Of a DNA stretch of 35,864 bases, positions 1-9,502 are shown one piece after another. Position numbers and translations under genes: made by a program. The DNA lies in contig CAMAWU010000008.1 of assembly GCA_945862025.1 (NCBI GenBank), positions 1-35,864 on the forward strand, written 5' to 3'. The notes below the pieces were generated by a model. That model was not told the DNA's origin, did not search any database, and saw only the letters and a program-made list of their open reading frames with translations. The DNA is from Ferrithrix thermotolerans DSM 19514. Lineage in GTDB: Bacteria > Actinomycetota > Acidimicrobiia > Acidimicrobiales > Ilumatobacteraceae. Within the stretch, counting starts at the first letter, position 1. Each line of letters opens with the position of its first letter.

Positions 1-1043
1 CGTCGCCGCTGAACTTCGATCGGCGCGTCAATATTCTCGGGTTGAGCAGTCGCCCCGCTGAAAAGTTGCCTCTCATATGCGGCGAGAGTCTCTCCAGCGC
101 CGAAGCCAACTTGTTTCAATCCTTGCATCACCGCAACAAGACAATCATCGCGCAGCATCTCAAGTTCACGAATCGTCCTAGATCCTGCCTGAGCGTCTGA
201 TTGCGAAACTATTTTCTCAAGCAGCACATCGTCAAGCTCAGGAACATTCATAAATTTAGTCCACGGCCACTTTAGAGTTGGTCCGAATTGTGCCATGAAG
301 TGACGCATTCCGGCCTCGCCGCCAGCAATTCGGTAGACCAAGAAAGTTCCCATAAACGACCATCTCAAACCAGCACCAAAGCGAATCGCATCATCAATTT
401 CTTCGGCTGTTGCAACACCATCATTAACTAGCCAAAGCGCTTCTCGCCACATTGCTTCCATTAATCGATCGGCGACGAAACCATCAATTTCTTTTTTCAA
501 CATTAATGGTCGCATTCCGATCAATTCGTAAACATCTCGTGCTCGTTCGCGAGCGATGATCGAAGTTTTATCTCCACCACAAATCTCAACTAGTGGCAAA
601 AGATATACAGGATTAAATGGGTGACCTACAACAAGCCTCTCAGGAAATGTCATGTCTTGTTGTAATAAACTCGGCAGAATTCCTGAAGTTGAAGAGCCAA
701 AAACAACATGGTTCGGGGCAACGCGACTTGCTCGTGCCAGCAACTCTTGCTTTAACTCAACTCGCTCTGGTGCACTCTCTTGAACAAAATCAACATCAGT
801 TGCGGCATCCTCTGGCGTATCAACAAATGTAATCGTGCCTTCTTCGGGTAGAGGCGCAAGCGTGAGTTTGGCGTACGCGCGACGAGCGTTTTCCATCACT
901 TCACCAATTTTGCGTTTTGCTTGTGGATCAACGTCGTAAATTTTTACGTCGTAGCCATTGAGTACGAAGCGAGCAGCCCAGCCACCACCAATAACTCCGC
1001 CACCGAGCAGGCCAATTGTTTTAAGTTTTTTGGATGAACTCAC
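1..1043 (-). CDS. lcdH: L-carnitine 3-dehydrogenase, 3' end beyond the window; possible C-terminal thioesterase fusion
   Basis: Oxidises L-carnitine to 3-dehydrocarnitine with NAD+ in the cytoplasm. Reading the minus strand from a GTG at 1043-1041 gives 347 codons without a stop up to the window edge. Visible motifs are an N-terminal Rossmann loop GGGVIGGG (residues 14-21), the active-site signature HPFNP (141-145), and the carnitine-dehydrogenase-like blocks GMRPL (176-180), DRLMEAMWREAL (192-203) and RFGAGLRWSFMGTF (221-234). These fit carnitine dehydrogenase better than a generic 3-hydroxyacyl-CoA dehydrogenase. Stand-alone enzymes are about 320 residues, and this frame continues past 347. 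In some bacteria the enzyme is fused to a betainyl-CoA thioesterase, so a fusion is likely but its second domain lies outside the window. The GTG start overlaps the TGA stop of the upstream BKACE gene (GTGA at 1043-1040), which suggests translational coupling. The substrate assignment rests on motifs plus the neighbouring genes. Confidence 0.88.
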   Translation of the reverse strand, partial: MSSSKKLKTIGLLGGGVIGGGWAARFVLNGYDVKIYDVDPQAKRKIGEVMENARRAYAKLTLAPLPEEGTITFVDTPEDAATDVDFVQESAPERVELKQELLARASRVAPNHVVFGSSTSGILPSLLQQDMTFPERLVVGHPFNPVYLLPLVEICGGDKTSIIARERARDVYELIGMRPLMLKKEIDGFVADRLMEAMWREALWLVNDGVATAEEIDDAIRFGAGLRWSFMGTFLVYRIAGGEAGMRHFMAQFGPTLKWPWTKFMNVPELDDVLLEKIVSQSDAQAGSRTIRELEMLRDDCLVAVMQGLKQVGFGAGETLAAYERQLFSGATAQPENIDAPIEVQRR

Positions 1044-1936
1044 GAATGTTTTGTTAGTTGTAGTTTTTTACGCACGGCGTCAGGTCCAATGACATTGACA
1101 TTCATATTTTCAAGAATTTTCACTGCCCGACCAACAAGGTCAGCATTTGATGCCATCTCACCTCGTGAGAGGTAGATGTTGTCTTCGAGTCCAACACGAA
1201 CGTTGCCACCAGCAAGTGCCGCCATTGCAACAAATGGCAACTGCATCCGACTGATTGAAAACGCTGAGAATATTGCTCCAGGTGGCAACTGATGAACTAG
1301 TGCCATAAATGTCGTTGGGTCATCTGGCGCCCCGTACGCGATCCCCATGCAGAGTTGAATCATTACTGGATCTTCAAGCAATCCTTCTGCAATTAAATCT
1401 TTGACCATCACGAGATGCCCCGTATCGAAAACTTCGAGTTCAGCACGTACACCGAGTTTTTGCACTTGTTTGGCCATTGACCGCAAAACACTTGGAGTGT
1501 TGACCATGATGTAGTCACCACCAGACGAGAAGTTCATCGTGCCGCAATCAAGTGTGCAAATTTCGGGCTTCAAACGCGCAACATGTGCAAGTCGCTCTGT
1601 GGCGCCGACCATGTCGGTGTTAGCAGTGTCAATTGGCAGAACTTTCTCATCACCACCAAGAACGAGATCACCACCCATGCCTGCAGTGAGATTTATCACT
1701 ACATCCGTATTGGACGATCGAATTCGATCAACTACTTCTGCGTATAAATCAACATCTCTCGAACCCTTGCCAGTTTTTGGATCGCGTACATGAATATGTA
1801 CGACCGCGGCTCCGGCTTTGGCAGCATCTAGCGCCGATTCAGCGATCTGTTGCGGGGTTACTGGAACCTTGTCACTCTTGCCTGTTGTGTCGCCCGCGCC
1901 AGTGACTGCACAAGTAATGAAGACGTCCCAGTTCAT
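1040..1936 (-). CDS. BKACE (DUF849) 3-keto acid cleavage enzyme, probably dehydrocarnitine-specific
   Basis: Predicted to convert 3-dehydrocarnitine plus acetyl-CoA into betainyl-CoA plus acetoacetate. This is a zinc-dependent TIM-barrel of the beta-keto acid cleavage family. Visible motifs are ITCAVTGAGDT near the N terminus, HIHVRDP (the two metal-binding His), NLTAGMGGD, TLDCGTMNF, EVFDTGH, and VRVGLEDN carrying the family's Glu-Asp pair. It is about 298 residues from the ATG at 1936, within the normal family length. An ATG at 1957 would add seven residues (MSYKLIA), but it overlaps the start codon of the divergent synthetase. The 1936 start also has a TAAACT hexamer 7 nt upstream. The stop overlaps the carnitine dehydrogenase start by 4 bp. 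Family members cleave several keto acids; dehydrocarnitine is inferred from the fused context. Confidence 0.88.
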   Translation of the reverse strand: MNWDVFITCAVTGAGDTTGKSDKVPVTPQQIAESALDAAKAGAAVVHIHVRDPKTGKGSRDVDLYAEVVDRIRSSNTDVVINLTAGMGGDLVLGGDEKVLPIDTANTDMVGATERLAHVARLKPEICTLDCGTMNFSSGGDYIMVNTPSVLRSMAKQVQKLGVRAELEVFDTGHLVMVKDLIAEGLLEDPVMIQLCMGIAYGAPDDPTTFMALVHQLPPGAIFSAFSISRMQLPFVAMAALAGGNVRVGLEDNIYLSRGEMASNADLVGRAVKILENMNVNVIGPDAVRKKLQLTKHS

Positions 1937-1942
1937 AGCAAT

Positions 1943-1949
1943 TAGTTTA
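1943..1949. promoter_or_regulatory. Candidate bidirectional -10 element shared by BKACE and acetoacetyl-CoA synthetase
   Basis: The 7-mer TAGTTTA reads TAGTTT on the plus strand (1943-1948) and TAAACT on the minus strand (1949-1944). Each is a TAnnnT hexamer exactly 7 nt before an ATG: 1956 on plus and 1936 on minus. No Shine-Dalgarno sequence is visible on either side. The spacing fits leaderless transcripts starting at or next to both ATGs. This is inferred from pattern only. Confidence 0.55.
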
Positions 1950-1955
1950 TAGGAC

Positions 1956-3923
1956 ATGACTCAGCGAGGGAAAATCGTCTGGCGACCATCAGTCGAAAAG
2001 GCGAAGGTTACTCGGATTCGCGACTTCTCGAAGTTTGAAGAGTTTTCTGATGTTCATCAGTGGTCGGTTGATAAACCCGACGAGTTTTGGGTAAGAATTT
2101 GGGAGTTTTGTGGCGTCGTTGGTGAGCGGGGTGAGCGAATTATTGATCGCTTCAATTCTCCAGGCGATCCATCACTTGAATTTATCGCTACGCGATTTTT
2201 TCCTGATGCTCAGTTGAGCGTTGTCGAGAATTTCTTGCGCCGCACAGGAGATGGAGATGCAATCGTCGCAATAGATGAGACAGGAAATCGATCAACACGA
2301 TCTTGGGATGAATTGCGGCATCGAGTGGCGAGTCTCGCGGGTGGGTTGGAAAATCTCGGAGTCGTCGCAGGCGATCGCGTTGTGGCCTGGCTTCCAAATG
2401 GAATTGAGGCAATTGAAACAATGCTTGCAGCAGCCTCAATCGGCGCTGTGTTCTCATCATGTTCACCAGACTTCGGAACGCAAGGTGTGCTGGACCGATT
2501 TAGTCAGATCTCACCCAAGGTTCTAGTGGCAACTGATTCGTATATATACGGTGGCAAAAAATTCGATTGTCTTGAACGACTTTCTGTAATTCGGACAGGA
2601 TTGCCAAGCCTCGTCAAAACTTTGTTAGTGAGCCCGAGTGCGATTACACACGGCTCAGACATAACTAGTTACGAAGTTTTTTTGGCTTCGTCAGTAGTCC
2701 ATTCGGTTCAGCCAAAACGATTCAAATTTGATCATCCGTGGTATGTGCTGTATTCGTCGGGCACAACGGGAGTGCCGAAATGCATAGTGCACAGAACTGG
2801 TGGGGTGTTGTTGCAACATTTGAAAGAGCATCAGTTGCATTGTGATGTGCGCCAGGGTGATCGCGTGATGTACTTCACTACAACGGGCTGGATGATGTGG
2901 AACTGGCTCGTGTCCGTATTAGCCAGTGGTGCAACAGCGGTGCTTTACGACGGATCGCCTAGTTATCCGACCATGAATCATTTATTTGATATTTGCGAGA
3001 CTGAGAAAATCTCTCTGCTTGGAACTTCGGCAAAATTTATTGACTCGGCTCGTAAATCGGAAATCTCACCAATTGACTCACATAATTTGCAATCGTTGCG
3101 AACTATTTGTTCAACTGGCTCGCCACTCGCGCCTGAGGGATTTGAGTGGATTTATGACAAGGTCGCAAAAGATATTCATCTTGCATCAATTTCCGGGGGT
3201 ACAGATATCTGTGCTTGCTTCGTCGGCGGTGACCCAACGAGTGCAGTGTTCGCTGGCGAGATACAACGACCGTGCCTTGGTATGGCCAGCGATGTCGTTG
3301 ACGAGAATGGCAAATCCTTGATAAGTGATTTCAACATTGCAGGAGAGCTTGTTTGTCGAGAACCTTTTCCGTCTGTGCCGCTGGGTTTCTGGGGCGATGG
3401 TGCCCTGGGTTTACCAGACCCAAAATTTCCAGGGCCAAGATTTCGCTCTGCATATTTTGAAAGATTTCCAGGAACCTGGAATCACGGTGATTTCGCGTCG
3501 TGGACAAGTCACGGCGGCATGGTGATTCATGGTCGCAGCGATACAACTCTCAATCCGGGCGGAGTCAGAATTGGTACGGCAGAGATCTATCGTGTTGTTG
3601 AACAGCATTCTGAGGTGCTTGAAAGTCTCGTCTTTGGTCAAGATTTTGAAAACGATGTTCGGATTATTCTTGCGGTGCGACTTGTCGCAGGTGCAACAAT
3701 GACAGAGCAACTTGTCGTTGATCTCAAATCGCGAATCAGAATTGCGTGCACGCCACGGCATGTGCCAGCCGTTGTGATTGCCGTTGCCGATCTGCCACGC
3801 ACGCGAAGTAATAAATTAGTTGAACTTGCGGTAATTGATGCGGTTAATGGTCGACCAGTGCGAAACATTGAAGCGATTGCTAACCCGGAAGCTATCACCG
3901 CGATAGTGGACGCTTTGAAATGA
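1956..3923 (+). CDS. acsA: Acetoacetyl-CoA synthetase
   Basis: Activates acetoacetate to acetoacetyl-CoA with ATP and CoA; a member of the acyl-adenylate (ANL) superfamily, cytoplasmic. The 655 residues match the usual family length. The N terminus has the family's WxPS block (WRPSVEKAK) followed by WSVDKPDEFW. The adenylation loop YSSGTTGVPK begins near residue 266, followed by TTTGWMMWNW, GGTD near 414, and a C-terminal lysine in the TRSNKLVE block near 619. The tail NGRPVRN...ANPEA is characteristic of acetoacetyl-CoA synthetases rather than acetyl-CoA synthetases. It is divergent from the BKACE gene, whose second product is acetoacetate, so it probably returns that carbon to acetyl-CoA with a thiolase encoded elsewhere. 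The symbol acsA is used for this family but also for acetyl-CoA synthetase. Confidence 0.9.
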   Translation: MTQRGKIVWRPSVEKAKVTRIRDFSKFEEFSDVHQWSVDKPDEFWVRIWEFCGVVGERGERIIDRFNSPGDPSLEFIATRFFPDAQLSVVENFLRRTGDGDAIVAIDETGNRSTRSWDELRHRVASLAGGLENLGVVAGDRVVAWLPNGIEAIETMLAAASIGAVFSSCSPDFGTQGVLDRFSQISPKVLVATDSYIYGGKKFDCLERLSVIRTGLPSLVKTLLVSPSAITHGSDITSYEVFLASSVVHSVQPKRFKFDHPWYVLYSSGTTGVPKCIVHRTGGVLLQHLKEHQLHCDVRQGDRVMYFTTTGWMMWNWLVSVLASGATAVLYDGSPSYPTMNHLFDICETEKISLLGTSAKFIDSARKSEISPIDSHNLQSLRTICSTGSPLAPEGFEWIYDKVAKDIHLASISGGTDICACFVGGDPTSAVFAGEIQRPCLGMASDVVDENGKSLISDFNIAGELVCREPFPSVPLGFWGDGALGLPDPKFPGPRFRSAYFERFPGTWNHGDFASWTSHGGMVIHGRSDTTLNPGGVRIGTAEIYRVVEQHSEVLESLVFGQDFENDVRIILAVRLVAGATMTEQLVVDLKSRIRIACTPRHVPAVVIAVADLPRTRSNKLVELAVIDAVNGRPVRNIEAIANPEAITAIVDALK

Positions 3924-3971
3924 CGAGTAGATAAAAATTTAATATTTATTATTCGGATAGAAAAATTGTAA

Positions 3972-4736
3972 TTACAAATTCGGGGTCAAAGATCTAAGCG
4001 AAAGATAATCGTCAAGTTCAAGAGCGTCAAACCCAGTAATGAACAAGGCTTCAGTTGCGCGAGAAAGTTTAATATCGCGTGTTGCATTTGCTAGTGCTTC
4101 GCGTAATTCTTGAAGTTGCTTGCTAGTCGTTGTGAGGTTCGTTATTAGTGGCAAACAAGGAACGAGTGGTCCGTTACAGATGATGAATAGTGATGAAATT
4201 ACCTCGGGAATCACTCTTTTGAGATGGGCAAATGTAACGCTGTCGATTGAAGCAACATCTGCCTCGCCGCGACTCAACATCAGTGCGCTTTCGTAATGCG
4301 ATTTAGATATCTTGACATCACCGCGCCAAGTTTCTTGCGGACCATGAATCGCAGCGATAAGACTGATCCACCCTGAAAGACTTTCGATGCCATTAACGGC
4401 GGCTGTCGAACCCTGAAAATCAAATGGTGTTCCATCTACTCGGCCCAAAACAATACTGCGGTAATAATGGCTTACCGATTCTGGTGTTGAGTGACGAAAT
4501 GATCCAACTACCCGAACTCGTTGCGATAGTCGCGTGATTAACGGCCATCCACATGTCTGACTGACGGCTAACTCGGGCGCAAGCCACAGAGCCTCGGGAT
4601 TTTGAGTCCATTGCAATTTTTCTGGCAGCCATTTGGCTTGCGAGTAGACGTTGTCCCAAATCTCGTTCCATGCCCAACGAGTATCTTCGAATGGATAGAA
4701 ACTGAGTTCGGCTAGTTGTCTTGAATTAGAAGGCAC
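3972..4736 (-). CDS. PhnD-like substrate-binding-fold protein without signal peptide
   Basis: A 254-residue protein with the fold signatures of the phosphate/phosphonate ABC-transporter binding family (PhnD-like). The central YYRSIVLGR strand is followed by an AAVNGIESLSGW segment and GEADVASIDSVTFAHLKR, with CLPLITN near the C-terminal third. It has no signal peptide, lipobox or membrane segment, since the N terminus is MPSNSRQLAELSFYPF. It is therefore predicted to be cytosolic, and no permease or ATPase gene lies nearby. Such solitary relatives are common, and their ligands are mostly unknown. The start is GTG at 4736, with a TAAAGT hexamer about 8 nt upstream. It is divergent from the membrane-protein pair that follows. 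The ligand cannot be assigned from sequence. Confidence 0.72.
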   Translation of the reverse strand: MPSNSRQLAELSFYPFEDTRWAWNEIWDNVYSQAKWLPEKLQWTQNPEALWLAPELAVSQTCGWPLITRLSQRVRVVGSFRHSTPESVSHYYRSIVLGRVDGTPFDFQGSTAAVNGIESLSGWISLIAAIHGPQETWRGDVKISKSHYESALMLSRGEADVASIDSVTFAHLKRVIPEVISSLFIICNGPLVPCLPLITNLTTTSKQLQELREALANATRDIKLSRATEALFITGFDALELDDYLSLRSLTPNL

Positions 4737-4802
4737 TATCTACAACTTTATTACTACGAGTAGGTGACAGTGCAACAAATGCCAGCCTTGGCGTCGATCT
4801 TC

Positions 4803-4808
4803 TAAGAT
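4803..4808 (+). promoter_or_regulatory. Candidate -10 element for leaderless transcription of the first GT-C-like gene
   Basis: TAAGAT ends 7 nt before the GTG start at 4816. No Shine-Dalgarno sequence is visible. The same spacing is seen before several other operon-head genes in the window. Confidence 0.45.
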
Positions 4809-4815
4809 ATTTGGT

Positions 4816-7152
4816 GTGCGTATCTTAAGTAAAGACTTGGCGACGAAGTCCTTCCTTAGTGTGATTTTTCTCATCTCAGTTCTTGCTCTAAGCGGTTTAG
4901 GGACTTTAGATATTGCGGTGATCATCTTGCTCGCTGCGGTACAAGTGTCTTTAGGGTCAAGAATCTGGTCGTATTTTCGAGCGAATCAACAAGTGTCTTT
5001 TTCTGAAACTATCGGAATGGGGGCTGCAATCGGATTTGGTTTGTCAATGATTTCAAGCCAAGCATTTCGCACCGTGCTACCGCGATCGGTTTCGTGGATT
5101 GTTTTGCCTCTGGCTTTCGCTGTAATTGTGCGCAAAGTTTCTAAAGTACCGCAAATTAGAGTCGAGTCGCAGCCCCGGAAGGCTAATGAGATCTACATCA
5201 TTATCACTGGCACGATAATCGCGCTGAGTACTTCTTGGTATTGGCTTATTCCAACTGCCCTCGCTGCGTTGTCGGGGACTATCTGGGCATTACTTCGCGA
5301 AAATAGAAGCAACCGAACAAAACCGAAAGTTATTTTGAGTCGGCTTCTTGGTTTATTCAGTATTTTCCTCATTGTTCGGGCCGCAATCGTGTTGAATGCG
5401 TTGGAGGAAGTTCGCAATCCACTGTGGTGGAGTTATCGATACGCAAAGATTCAGGATCCTGATGTTGTATTTGTTGAGTCGATGATGCGCTCAGTTCGCC
5501 TGCTGGGTGGAGGCGAAAGCATTTTTTTTGCTGGCGTAAGACTCCACTACCACTGGTTTTCTTTCGCATGGAATGACACGTTGAATGCCATTGTTGAAAC
5601 AGAACCATTTGCAATATCAGGTATTGCTGGCCCGGTTCTAGTTTTGTTCGTGATTATGTGTTTGCTTTCGGCAATTGCTGACCGTTTATCAACTAATCGG
5701 ATTGGCACAATTGCAACAGTTGTTGCAGTATCGGCAATGTGCGCGGGACCGGTACCTTTTCTGCGCGCATTGCATCCATATTCTTACTCGTTTGCTTTTT
5801 CGCTGATATATATTTTTGCGATCGTATTGATCTTGCTTAGTCAAGAAACAACAAATATTGTGTCGAATCTTGGATTGACATTTCTATTCTCCACAATGTT
5901 GATCGGAAGCAAAGTTACTGCGGCACCGACAATGATTTTAGGAATATTATCTATAAACATCTTCTGTCACTTCACGAAAAATAAACAACGGAATCAGATT
6001 TTTGCTATTTCCTTAGCGGCTGCAGCGGCAACTATTTCGGTTTGGTTTTTCGTGTATTTCGCTCCCGAGGCGGAGAAATCAAATTCGTTCAAGCTTGGTG
6101 TTGGTGAGATTTTCAAACAAAAGGCATATCTCTCATCTGGGCTAACGACTTTGGTATTTGCCGTTGGGTTCATCAGTCTGTTATTGGTATCTAGTTATTC
6201 GCTAATCGGACTGGCATGGATACGTGAACTAACAACTTCTGGGTCGCGTCTTGCGTTGATTTTTGCTGTAGCAGGAGGGGCCGTCAGTCTGGTTATGGCT
6301 TTATTGATTTCGGATGATCTTGAGAGTTCGGGCTATTTAATTCAGACTAGTTTTGCTTTATTGATTCCGTTTTCGGTTATCGCATTGTCAAATTCTTCAC
6401 GGAACTTAATAGTTCGCAAACGAAAACTCTTACTGGGGTTTGTTGTAATCGGTATTTTGTTGGCACGAGTTAGCTGGTCATTAGTTGACAAAGTCAGCGG
6501 CAACGCAAATGCTGTCGTTTATAAAACCTCGATAATTATCTTGCTTCCGATTATTGTTTCGTTTCTATTCTTAATTGCTTCGGCTTTATTTGGCCTTACT
6601 AAATTCCGTACAGTACTCGTTCTCGTCAGTGCTCTTTTGGTTAGTGCAGGAACCGTTGGAAGTTATGCCGCATTTGCAACTGAGTTTTACCGTGATGGCG
6701 TAAATTACAGAGAGTTACATGTCGACGACGCCGACACTATTACTGGCTCAGATGCCTATCGGGAGATGTTGATTTGGCTTCGTAATAATTCGCGAAGTGT
6801 CGACTTAGTCGCCACGAATCGATACTGTTCTGATTCGTACGAAACACCACCAGGTTGTCTTTCACTTTGGAGTCTCACTTCAGCAATTTCAATTAGACAA
6901 GTGCTTGGCGAAGAAATGCCAGGCACACGTGTAATTGGATACGTTGCGGAGCGTGAGAAGCGCAGGGTGCTGGTTGAGTCTTTTGTCAACCTACCGACTG
7001 AGCAGAGTCGTTCTGCTTTGCTTGATTACGGAGTTCATTGGGTGGTCGCTGATTTTGCAGTGACACAAACTCGTGATTGGGGTAATTTCGCTAATTTACG
7101 GTTTAAGAACAGCGCAGGTGCAATTCTTGAATTAACTAGTGCAAATTCTTAG
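4816..7152 (+). CDS. Polytopic membrane protein, GT-C glycosyltransferase-like (first of a tandem pair)
   Basis: A 778-residue integral membrane protein with roughly 12-14 hydrophobic segments by eye and a C-terminal soluble domain of about 130 residues. A loop after the first third carries DPDVVFVESMMRSVRLLG followed by LHYHWFSFAW. This arrangement of acidic and His/Trp residues is typical of extracytoplasmic catalytic loops in GT-C-fold glycosyltransferases, which use polyprenyl-phosphate sugars. The C-terminal domain (YREMLIWLRNNS...LVATNRYC...DYGVHWVVADFAV) resembles those of large actinobacterial membrane proteins of this type. The start is GTG at 4816. The next gene is a paralog only 1 bp downstream. 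I do not recognise a specific family, so substrate and enzymatic activity are inference. It could instead be a non-catalytic envelope protein. Confidence 0.65.
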   Translation: MRILSKDLATKSFLSVIFLISVLALSGLGTLDIAVIILLAAVQVSLGSRIWSYFRANQQVSFSETIGMGAAIGFGLSMISSQAFRTVLPRSVSWIVLPLAFAVIVRKVSKVPQIRVESQPRKANEIYIIITGTIIALSTSWYWLIPTALAALSGTIWALLRENRSNRTKPKVILSRLLGLFSIFLIVRAAIVLNALEEVRNPLWWSYRYAKIQDPDVVFVESMMRSVRLLGGGESIFFAGVRLHYHWFSFAWNDTLNAIVETEPFAISGIAGPVLVLFVIMCLLSAIADRLSTNRIGTIATVVAVSAMCAGPVPFLRALHPYSYSFAFSLIYIFAIVLILLSQETTNIVSNLGLTFLFSTMLIGSKVTAAPTMILGILSINIFCHFTKNKQRNQIFAISLAAAAATISVWFFVYFAPEAEKSNSFKLGVGEIFKQKAYLSSGLTTLVFAVGFISLLLVSSYSLIGLAWIRELTTSGSRLALIFAVAGGAVSLVMALLISDDLESSGYLIQTSFALLIPFSVIALSNSSRNLIVRKRKLLLGFVVIGILLARVSWSLVDKVSGNANAVVYKTSIIILLPIIVSFLFLIASALFGLTKFRTVLVLVSALLVSAGTVGSYAAFATEFYRDGVNYRELHVDDADTITGSDAYREMLIWLRNNSRSVDLVATNRYCSDSYETPPGCLSLWSLTSAISIRQVLGEEMPGTRVIGYVAEREKRRVLVESFVNLPTEQSRSALLDYGVHWVVADFAVTQTRDWGNFANLRFKNSAGAILELTSANS
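7012..7061 (+). repeat. Near-identical 50-bp coding block, copy 1
   Basis: This stretch matches 9371-9420 at 47 of 50 positions by direct alignment. Both copies encode the SALLDYGV[H/R]WVVADFAV region in the C-terminal domains of the tandem membrane proteins. Two of the three differences are synonymous and one changes His to Arg. The rest of the two genes is far more diverged. Confidence 0.8.
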
Positions 7153-7153
7153 T

Positions 7154-9502
7154 ATGTCAAGAATCTCAAAGCTTTACGAACCGATGCGCGAGAACGTGAT
7201 CACACAATTTTTGATCGCTAATATAATTTTTGCGTTGCTATTTCGATTGTGTGAATTAAACCTCATAGATGTTGTTCAAATTTTGTTTGTAGTCAATGTG
7301 CAAATTGTTCTTGGTGGACTCACCTGGATGAATTTTCGACGGGGTAAGAGTATTCCGTTGGCCGAATTTGTCGGCATGGGTGGCGCAATTGGATTCGGAC
7401 TCGCAATATTGTCAAGCCAGATTTTTCGCACAATCTTGCCACAATCAGTTGCTTGGTTAATTTTGCCCGCACTTGTTTCTGTTATTTGTCGGATTCAAGG
7501 CTCAAGATCAATCAAAGAAGTTGCTGCCGACATTGGTTACGACGCTGACACTGGAGTCATCTTTGCTGCAACACTAATTGCGCTCAGCACTTCTTGGTAC
7601 TGGTTGATAAGCACAGCGGTTTCTGTACTTTTGTGGGCTATTTTCTTTCGTTTACGCCAACACCGAACGTCGAGCAGTTTCTTTAAATCCAAGAGCCATA
7701 TCGCTCTGCTGATCTCTGCATTAATAATTTCAATTCGCGCGTTGAAGCATCTCTCGTTATTAGATCAAATTCGTAATCCTCTGTGGTGGAATTTGCGTTT
7801 TGGAGTGTTGCAGGATCCTGATCAAATTTTCTACGAGTCAATGGTTAATTCAACTCGTTTGTTAGGCAACCAAGGCAACATCTTTTTTACTGGACTCAAC
7901 TTTTATTACCACTGGTTCAGTTATGCATGGGAGAGCACTCTTAGTTCGCTGAACGAAACACAACCTTTCGTAATAACTGCCATTGCTGGACCTGCAATCG
8001 TTTTGCTTGTTTTGCTCTGTCTGGTGTGCACAGTCGCCAAAAGAATTTCATCCAATGCGCTTAGCGGTCCAGCAGCGGTTTTGGTCGTCTCGATGATGTG
8101 CGCGGGACCAATACCGTTCCTGCGTGTTTTACACCCATACTCCTTTTCTTTCAACTTTAGTTTGATATTTCTTTACGCGATATTGGTCGTGTTGTTTACA
8201 AATACTGAAATCAAGACTGCACATTTATTCTTTATTTTATTTTATTTATGTGTTTGTCTTTTTGGAAGCAAGGTTTCGTTCGTCCCAATCTTGGTTATCG
8301 GCTCGTTTTGCAATGTCCTGTGGTCGCTAAAAACTGCTCAAAGAGTTACACAGGCAGCAGCGGTATTCGGTGCGTCAATCTTGGCTACTGTTGCTTGTTT
8401 CTCAACGATGTACAGTCTCAGCAGTAATTCTGGCTCGAACTATCATCTTTCATTTGCTGACATTTTGTGGCAAAAAGCGAATATCGAACAACAACTTCCC
8501 ATTTATATTGTTTTAGTCTCGTTTGTATTCGTAACTACGATTCTGATTCTTCCGACATTAGGAGTTTTTCTAACGAGAAGCGTTTTTCAAATTGAACGAC
8601 AACCAGGAATTGTTGTTGCAGTTTCGGCAGGAGTCTCTGGATTAATTCTCGGTTTCCTGCTGTCTGATCCGGCGGAATCAAACGCATATTTCATTCAGGC
8701 TGGATTAGCACTTTTGGTTCCGATTTCTGTTGCGATTGCTTTACATAGATTCAACTTAAATAACTTTCGGACTCAGATATTCTTCGTCGTTTCATTTTTC
8801 TTCAGTGTCGAAGGTGCGCGATTGTGGCCACGTACATATCGCGGGATAACTGGTGAGGGTTTAAGTCCATTTATTAAAACATCGTTAACGATGGGAATAC
8901 CAACTTTAATTCCAATCTTTTGTTTCGTGTTAGTGCGTTACTTACCTCAGTTAAGGTTTGCGGTTAAATCAACGCAGTTTTTGGTGATTTTATTAATCGT
9001 GTCTTCTGCTGGTTCGTATTATGCCAACGCTGGTGAGTTTTTCAATAAAGGGGTATGGGCGGCTAACAATGTCCAATTCGCCAACGCAGATGTGATCAGC
9101 GGATCGCCTGCGTACAGAAACCTGTTGTTGTGGTTACGAAATAATTCGGAGTTGTCTGATCTCGTGGCGACTAATAGATATTGCTCGGTGTCAACAGATC
9201 TGCCATCAGAGTGTCAGGCTTTATGGAATCTAACCTCAGCGATAAGCGGTCGACGAATGCTTAGCGAGGGTGTATGGACAATTGTTACCATTTCTGGTCT
9301 TGAGTCAGAACTCGCAACGCGTGTTGACCTTGTCGATAGCTTTGTCGATCAGCCCTCTTTGCAGAATCGCTCTGCTTTGCTTGATTACGGTGTTCGTTGG
9401 GTGGTGGCTGATTTTGCAGTTGCAAAGAATCGTAATTGGGGAGAGTTCGCTGAAGTGCGCTTCGAAAATAAGGCTGGCGCAATTCTTGAGCTTGTGCAGT
9501 AG
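7154..9502 (+). CDS. Polytopic membrane protein, GT-C glycosyltransferase-like (second of a tandem pair)
   Basis: A paralog of the preceding gene, about 782 residues, with the same order of hydrophobic segments. It conserves NPLWWNLRFG, DPDQIFYESMVNSTRLLG, FYYHWFSYAW, MMCAGPIPFLRVLHPYSF and the C-terminal YRNLLLWLRNNS...ATNRYCS...VVADFAV domain. I chose the ATG at 7154, one base after the upstream stop codon. A GTG at 7139 in the same frame would add five residues and overlap the upstream gene by 14 bp. The two proteins may act as a heteromeric pair or on related lipid-linked sugars. Conservation of the acidic and YHW loop in both copies argues that both are functional. Exact function unknown. 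Confidence 0.65.
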   Translation: MSRISKLYEPMRENVITQFLIANIIFALLFRLCELNLIDVVQILFVVNVQIVLGGLTWMNFRRGKSIPLAEFVGMGGAIGFGLAILSSQIFRTILPQSVAWLILPALVSVICRIQGSRSIKEVAADIGYDADTGVIFAATLIALSTSWYWLISTAVSVLLWAIFFRLRQHRTSSSFFKSKSHIALLISALIISIRALKHLSLLDQIRNPLWWNLRFGVLQDPDQIFYESMVNSTRLLGNQGNIFFTGLNFYYHWFSYAWESTLSSLNETQPFVITAIAGPAIVLLVLLCLVCTVAKRISSNALSGPAAVLVVSMMCAGPIPFLRVLHPYSFSFNFSLIFLYAILVVLFTNTEIKTAHLFFILFYLCVCLFGSKVSFVPILVIGSFCNVLWSLKTAQRVTQAAAVFGASILATVACFSTMYSLSSNSGSNYHLSFADILWQKANIEQQLPIYIVLVSFVFVTTILILPTLGVFLTRSVFQIERQPGIVVAVSAGVSGLILGFLLSDPAESNAYFIQAGLALLVPISVAIALHRFNLNNFRTQIFFVVSFFFSVEGARLWPRTYRGITGEGLSPFIKTSLTMGIPTLIPIFCFVLVRYLPQLRFAVKSTQFLVILLIVSSAGSYYANAGEFFNKGVWAANNVQFANADVISGSPAYRNLLLWLRNNSELSDLVATNRYCSVSTDLPSECQALWNLTSAISGRRMLSEGVWTIVTISGLESELATRVDLVDSFVDQPSLQNRSALLDYGVRWVVADFAVAKNRNWGEFAEVRFENKAGAILELVQ
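9371..9420 (+). repeat. Near-identical 50-bp coding block, copy 2
   Basis: Second copy of the 7012-7061 block, 47/50 identical, in the same position of the paralogous C-terminal domain. Consistent with recent gene conversion or very strong local constraint. Confidence 0.8.

Follow-up and report, generated by a model that had tools for sequence, protein, structure and literature searches.

A 19-bp gap between divergent BKACE and acetoacetate-CoA ligase genes is probably a bidirectional promoter with one symmetric −10 element and two leaderless transcripts

In the window analysed here, that is, the whole 35,864-nt stretch taken on its forward strand and numbered from its first base, two divergent genes have their start codons only 19 bp apart. 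One encodes a beta-keto acid cleavage enzyme (BKACE) and the other an acetoacetate-CoA ligase (AACS, also known as acetoacetyl-CoA synthetase). We consider it probable that the gap between them is a bidirectional promoter, in which a single pseudo-symmetric −10 element, TAGTTTA, would give rise to two leaderless or nearly leaderless mRNAs, with the two orientations being mutually exclusive. That the gap acts as a promoter is well supported by conservation of the element across the genus. The features on which the argument turns are these:

1937 to 1955: intergenic gap, 19 bp, sequence AGCAATTAGTTTATAGGAC, between the start codons CAT 1934-1936 and ATG 1956-1958 (sequence)
1943 to 1949: symmetric TAnnnTA 7-mer TAGTTTA, putative shared −10 element in which −11A and −7T of the two directions pair (sequence and the geometry of PMC10268837)
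1943 to 1948, plus strand: predicted AACS −10 hexamer TAGTTT, 7 nt before ATG 1956 (6 nt in 1/12 genomes)
1944 to 1949, minus strand: predicted BKACE −10 hexamer TAAACT, 7 nt before ATG 1936 (6 nt in 3/12 genomes)
1943 to 1951: invariant core TAGTTTATA (12/12 paired genomes, defined below)
1040 to 1936, minus strand: BKACE, 298 aa from the conserved start (PF05853, E 5.1e-96, and conservation of the start)
1956 to 3923, plus strand: AACS, 655 aa (NF002937 and TIGR01217)

According to the mechanism that we propose, the housekeeping sigma factor would read TAGTTT on the plus strand, and AACS transcription would start at or next to the ATG at 1956; in the opposite orientation it would read TAAACT, and the operon of BKACE and a carnitine dehydrogenase gene would start at or next to the ATG at 1936. 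Polymerase would bind in either orientation, one at a time, and both mRNAs, leaderless or nearly so, would be translated without a Shine-Dalgarno sequence. The two leaderless starts are predictions, which we regard as likely. An earlier, sequence-only reading of this DNA had described 19 bp between the two ATGs and TAnnnT hexamers on both strands of TAGTTTA, each 7 nt from its ATG, and both descriptions are confirmed, at 1937-1955 and 1943-1949. It had also envisaged one melted bubble for both directions and co-regulation of the two halves of a pathway. Since polymerase binds in one orientation at a time, one bubble could serve both directions alternately and not at once, and co-regulation does not follow from a shared −10, as one direction, when strongly activated, can repress the other (PMC12825309).

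The strongest evidence comes from comparison within the genus. The gap is readable in 12 of a set of 29 same-genus genomes, hereafter the paired genomes (the home genome G000, with G024, G021, G010, G003, G005, G016, G019, G011, G015, G025 and G028); both genes are present in G002 (L147) as well, where the gap reads N and was left out of the counts, and in the remaining genomes BKACE and AACS are absent, fragmentary or apart. The core TAGTTTATA is unchanged in all 12 despite swaps of ATG and GTG at either end (AACS starts with ATG in four and GTG in eight, BKACE with ATG in seven and GTG in five) and despite a gap of 19 bp in eight and 18 bp in four. The hexamers lie 7 nt from both starts in eight genomes, 6 nt on the AACS side in one and 6 nt on the BKACE side in three, such that 1-bp indels move the spacing between 6 and 7 nt and leave the core untouched. 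Overlapping predicted −10 elements with reciprocal −11A and −7T, a TANNNT within about 6-8 nt of the ATG or GTG on each side, and a pyrimidine before both start codons were found in every paired genome. The sequence-only reading had named loss of the 7-mer in close relatives as a refuting outcome; this comparison has now been run, and the 7-mer is kept throughout.

Silent positions in the same genomes behave very differently. Counting fourfold-degenerate columns present in at least 9 of the 12 paired genomes, 3/183 are invariant in AACS and 6/131 in BKACE. Relative to the window, fourfold sites are kept at 82-94% in G024 and G021 and at 25-51% in the other nine relatives, the lowest value (2/8) coming from a short AACS fragment of G028. 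As nearly all of these sites vary, recent ancestry does not account for a run of nine invariant bases.

A leaderless arrangement depends on where the two genes begin. The AACS frame has a stop, TAG, at 1950-1952, so the gene starts no further upstream than 1956, and both NCBIfam models align from residue 6. The BKACE frame holds two in-frame ATGs, at 1957 and 1936, of which the upper one overlaps the AACS ATG:

1955 to 1957, minus strand: second possible in-frame ATG of BKACE, forming CATG together with the AACS ATG, non-conserved (4/12 paired genomes)

We rejected this extended start, because CATG occurs in just 4/12 paired genomes while an ATG or GTG stands at the 1936 position in 12/12, and 1936 is likely the BKACE start.

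Shine-Dalgarno sequences were sought as the 4-mers AGGA, GGAG, GAGG and AAGG. None occurs on the BKACE side of the gap in any paired genome, and on the AACS side there is an AGGA in 3/12, one base from the ATG, which is too close to act and is not conserved. The claim of the earlier reading that neither side has a Shine-Dalgarno sequence is thereby borne out. Elsewhere in the genus, BKACE starts with GTG behind GAGGA or AAGGA in G023 and G026 (L091, L092), and in G026 it lies behind another gene.

Leaderless genes seem to be frequent in the home genome, from which we sampled 434 kb (the window plus 20 stretches) with a simple gene caller, obtaining 328 genes with usable starts. Of these, 38 have a TAnnnT ending 6 nt before the start, 10 have one at 7 nt and 13 at 8 nt, whereas positions 14-44 nt upstream average 4.06 each; this peak is the signature that would be expected if leaderless genes were common. 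The base at −1 is a pyrimidine in 28/38 genes with spacing 6, 7/10 with spacing 7, 4/13 with spacing 8 and 111/267 of the rest. The lack of Shine-Dalgarno 4-mers among the TAnnnT genes carries a bias, because both motifs would have to lie on the same bases, and we did not count it as evidence. Scanning 1-5000 for the sigma-70 consensus gave no promoter within the gap, as expected of a scan that requires a −35. Two further candidate elements are of lesser weight:

1946 to 1951, minus strand: alternative −10 TATAAA, 9 nt before the ATG, a spacing that the histogram makes less likely
1920 to 1925, plus strand: weak, tentative −35-like AAGACG, 17 bp from the AACS −10, within BKACE codons

In 11/12 paired genomes the latter recurs, as AAGACG or AAGACA, 16-17 bp away from the AACS −10 (G016 has AACACA), and these are coding bases.

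Several observations weigh against a shared promoter. The spacing of 7 used at this gap is a minor class in the home genome, which prefers 6, and if judged solely by the 10 genes found where about 4 are expected, only some 60% of spacing-7 cases would be real. For BKACE, no −35-like hexamer could be seen. The exact 25-bp geometry is not enriched, with 16 sites in 29 genomes, eight of them this locus; a reversed control, imperfect because reversal turns TA steps into AT steps, gave 73 sites. A Shine-Dalgarno sequence is not evident in G014 either, whose BKACE gene overlaps the end of the gene upstream, and its absence is therefore not unique to the compact pair. The symmetric final A of TAGTTTA is present also in G008, in which no divergent gene start is seen beside AACS, and so this base need not be kept for divergent transcription. 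Finally, the genomes are mostly fragmented drafts, and their sequences share ancestry.

The best-surviving alternative, which we nevertheless judge unlikely, is that the element is a promoter of AACS only and that BKACE is transcribed from a start inside the AACS coding region, with an antisense leader that has no Shine-Dalgarno sequence. Such leaders seem common in the home genome, as 196/328 sampled genes have neither a TAnnnT at 6-8 nt nor a Shine-Dalgarno 4-mer, and the missing −35-like hexamer for BKACE would fit as well. Moreover, an AACS motif TAG[GAT]TTA at 7 nt is kept in a sister genus, in genomes with a different gene opposite AACS and where no facing gene was seen, so that AACS by itself could explain conservation of the element. 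All five further same-genus genomes with a readable AACS start (G001, G006, G008, G014 and G026) have TAG[AT]TTA, with TAGATT or TAGTTT 7 nt before the ATG or GTG, and the final A is kept in all five although BKACE is not the immediate neighbour. The symmetric element is therefore a property of the AACS promoter, often facing a divergent gene, and not of BKACE alone. Against an AACS-only role, TAAACT stands 6-7 nt before the BKACE start in 12/12 paired genomes, and the core there is longer than before most other AACS genes, which have TAGATTACA (G006, G026), TAGTTTAAG (G008) or TAGGTTAGT (the sister genus, g23); G001 and G014, with TAGATTATA, are the exceptions.

What faces AACS in these five genomes varies. 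In G014 and G026 the first divergent gene encodes a hydrophobic protein of 688 or 683 aa, with BKACE behind it (L164:1400-3466, minus; L165:2859-4910, plus); the two proteins are 45% identical to each other and gave no Pfam or NCBIfam match. The gap to AACS is 20 bp in G014, with TAATCT 8 nt before the GTG of the divergent gene, and 18 bp in G026, where the listed start of that gene is a TTG and a GTG further inside is possible. In G006, 42 bp separate AACS from the listed divergent start, and the contigs of G008 and G001 end about 600 bp and 189 bp upstream of AACS, respectively. In the sister genus, TTAGGTTAGTG (TAGGTT 7 nt before the ATG) precedes AACS in 13/14 fetched loci, the gap between BKACE and AACS is 73-87 bp, and AAGGG, a Shine-Dalgarno sequence, precedes the BKACE ATG in 14/14. 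A TTGYCAAT block, the first six bases of which lie 19 bp upstream of the AACS −10, was also noted in most of the 13 sister-genus loci with the motif (within L097-L110); where Y is T, it reads TTGACA-like on the other strand.

A second alternative, in our view very unlikely, holds that the conserved 9-mer is an operator for a regulator of both genes and that its match to a −10 is incidental. Strong conservation and a plausible shared pathway would suit an operator, yet the 10-mer TTAGTTTATA is rare, with 0-3 copies in each of the 17 genomes searched, is not palindromic and coincides with the −10 position on both strands; a variant with a local regulator and a single site would be compatible with that rarity. 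The idea of a chance pattern in a single AT-rich gap, already disfavoured, is barely credible given 12/12 conservation amid nearly all-variable fourfold sites and conservation of both start codons. It does draw on real numbers: TAnnnT lies 6-8 nt from the ends on both strands in 2.3% of random 19-mers of the sampled intergenic composition, and the home-genome sample holds 43 divergent neighbours in its 434 kb. A single sequence is for these reasons weak evidence, and the strength of the case derives from the 12 genomes.

The two operons plausibly meet in one breakdown pathway. AACS lies above the cut-off in both NCBIfam models (NF002937, 814 bits against 639; TIGR01217, 763.5 bits against 520.9), and directly behind BKACE follows a third gene:

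1 to 1040, minus strand: carnitine 3-dehydrogenase-like gene, cut by the window edge (PF02737)

Its top NCBIfam match, PRK07531 carnitine 3-dehydrogenase, reaches 497.2 bits, under the cut-off of 592. BKACE acting on dehydrocarnitine yields betainyl-CoA and acetoacetate, and acetoacetate would then be activated by AACS. As the product of one side of the gap would be the substrate of the other, both sides plausibly belong to the route from carnitine via dehydrocarnitine to betainyl-CoA and acetoacetate, and on to acetoacetyl-CoA, as judged from gene family and neighbourhood.

Returning to the bidirectional promoter, we tentatively suggest, with somewhat less than even confidence, that a 7-bp shared −10 with 5-6 bp on each side constitutes the complete intergenic control of two opposing operons that serve one pathway, that loss of the leader and Shine-Dalgarno sequence of BKACE fused the promoter and both starts into one unit, and that polymerase orientation alone sets the ratio of the enzymes. 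The Shine-Dalgarno leader of BKACE would then have been kept in the sister genus and lost in the compact lineage, a direction of change that we infer, and any shift of the −10 within the fused unit would change both start sites. If so, the gap would be a natural bidirectional promoter reduced to a minimum, with the promoter coinciding with both the transcription starts and the translation starts of its two genes, and kept between species whose silent sites are almost randomised. It could provide a clean test of how polymerase orientation alone sets the ratio of opposing genes, and of the way in which genes with a Shine-Dalgarno sequence become leaderless in compact genomes.

Such compact units may recur in the genus, as suggested by a second conserved 19-bp divergent gap, between the gene for a methylmalonyl-CoA mutase C-terminal subunit (TIGR00640) and that for an unnamed protein (L180-L199; G000:C28:1513-1531). 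Its core, TAACCTTA, is present in 20/20 fetched loci, out of 24 genomes with a near-full-length match, and contains TAACCT 6 nt before the plus start and TAAGGT 9 nt before the minus start, the latter distance making it a looser case.

Two other candidates were rejected. A symmetric pair in L123, where a membrane protein gene faces an acyl-CoA dehydrogenase gene, failed because the plus-side ATG is not conserved in 25 fetched loci, which also indicates that the gene caller yields some false short gaps; TAATAT 6 nt before the minus-side ATG is mostly conserved in these loci. The other 25-bp match in the home genome (C28:9893) lies in a divergent intergenic region, but neither of the listed genes on its two sides starts at the flanking CAC or GTG. 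Ahead of the membrane protein gene, most of the 25 loci (L200-L224) carry a block CATCTGCC.ATATTA with small variations, and the TAATAT 6 nt before its ATG is likely a leaderless promoter. At L112:1493-1536 (G000:C28:9885-9928), a TAnnnTA element lies between two copies of a 12-bp palindrome, GGTGCTAGCACC; the gene on one side is repeat-rich, and the one on the other, judged by eye, resembles a response regulator.

Elsewhere in the window, 4816-7152 and 7139-9502 encode, side by side, two hydrophobic proteins (778 and 787 aa) that share 38% identity and have no Pfam or NCBIfam match. The closest named records at the locus have titles that include Acidimicrobiaceae, Ilumatobacteraceae and 'acIV', and BKACE proteins 91-99% identical to that of the window occur in drafts titled Ferrithrix thermotolerans and Bifidobacterium breve (L002-L004, L010, L011), which are probably mislabelled.

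Set against known systems, the locus brings together symmetric −10 promoters and leaderless genes, both of them established features, in an arrangement that is unusually tight and conserved. The release of acetoacetate by BKACE would feed AACS here, and BKACE stands beside a carnitine 3-dehydrogenase-like gene. A carnitine dehydrogenase together with BKACE is described for the carnitine catabolism of Pseudomonas (PMC12482172); the dehydrogenase of the window falls under its NCBIfam cut-off, and the putative substrate of BKACE is assigned from gene family and neighbourhood. Among open-licence titles and abstract openings found, none states a leaderless-leaderless pair over one −10, and the part of PMC10937400 drawn on contains nothing on divergent pairs.

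In M. tuberculosis, leaderless genes make up 26% of those with a primary start and have TANNNT with no conserved −35; the same study (Cortes et al. 2013, PMC3898074) notes that divergent promoters commonly lie close together and that Rv1129c and Rv1130, a divergent pair, are both leaderless. The gap described here resembles these actinobacterial leaderless mRNAs in its TANNNT without a conserved −35 and in presumed translation from a 5′-end ATG or GTG, and differs in that a single element would be shared by two opposing genes, both predicted to be leaderless. In the bidirectional promoters described by Warman, Grainger and colleagues (PMC12825309), polymerase binds in one orientation at a time, and opposite starts are usually 18 bp apart with small variations allowed; where a −10 is shared, −11A and −7T of the two directions pair, and opposite starts lie 7-25 bp apart, mostly 18 (PMC10268837). 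The gap has a putative shared −10 with the same reciprocal pairing, whereas the predicted starts are 19-20 bp apart and both fall at start codons, and nothing lies between the genes beyond the element and the 5-6 bp that flank it on either side. The compact gap of these uncultured freshwater-type actinobacteria thus probably represents a pared-down version of a type of bidirectional promoter that is already known.

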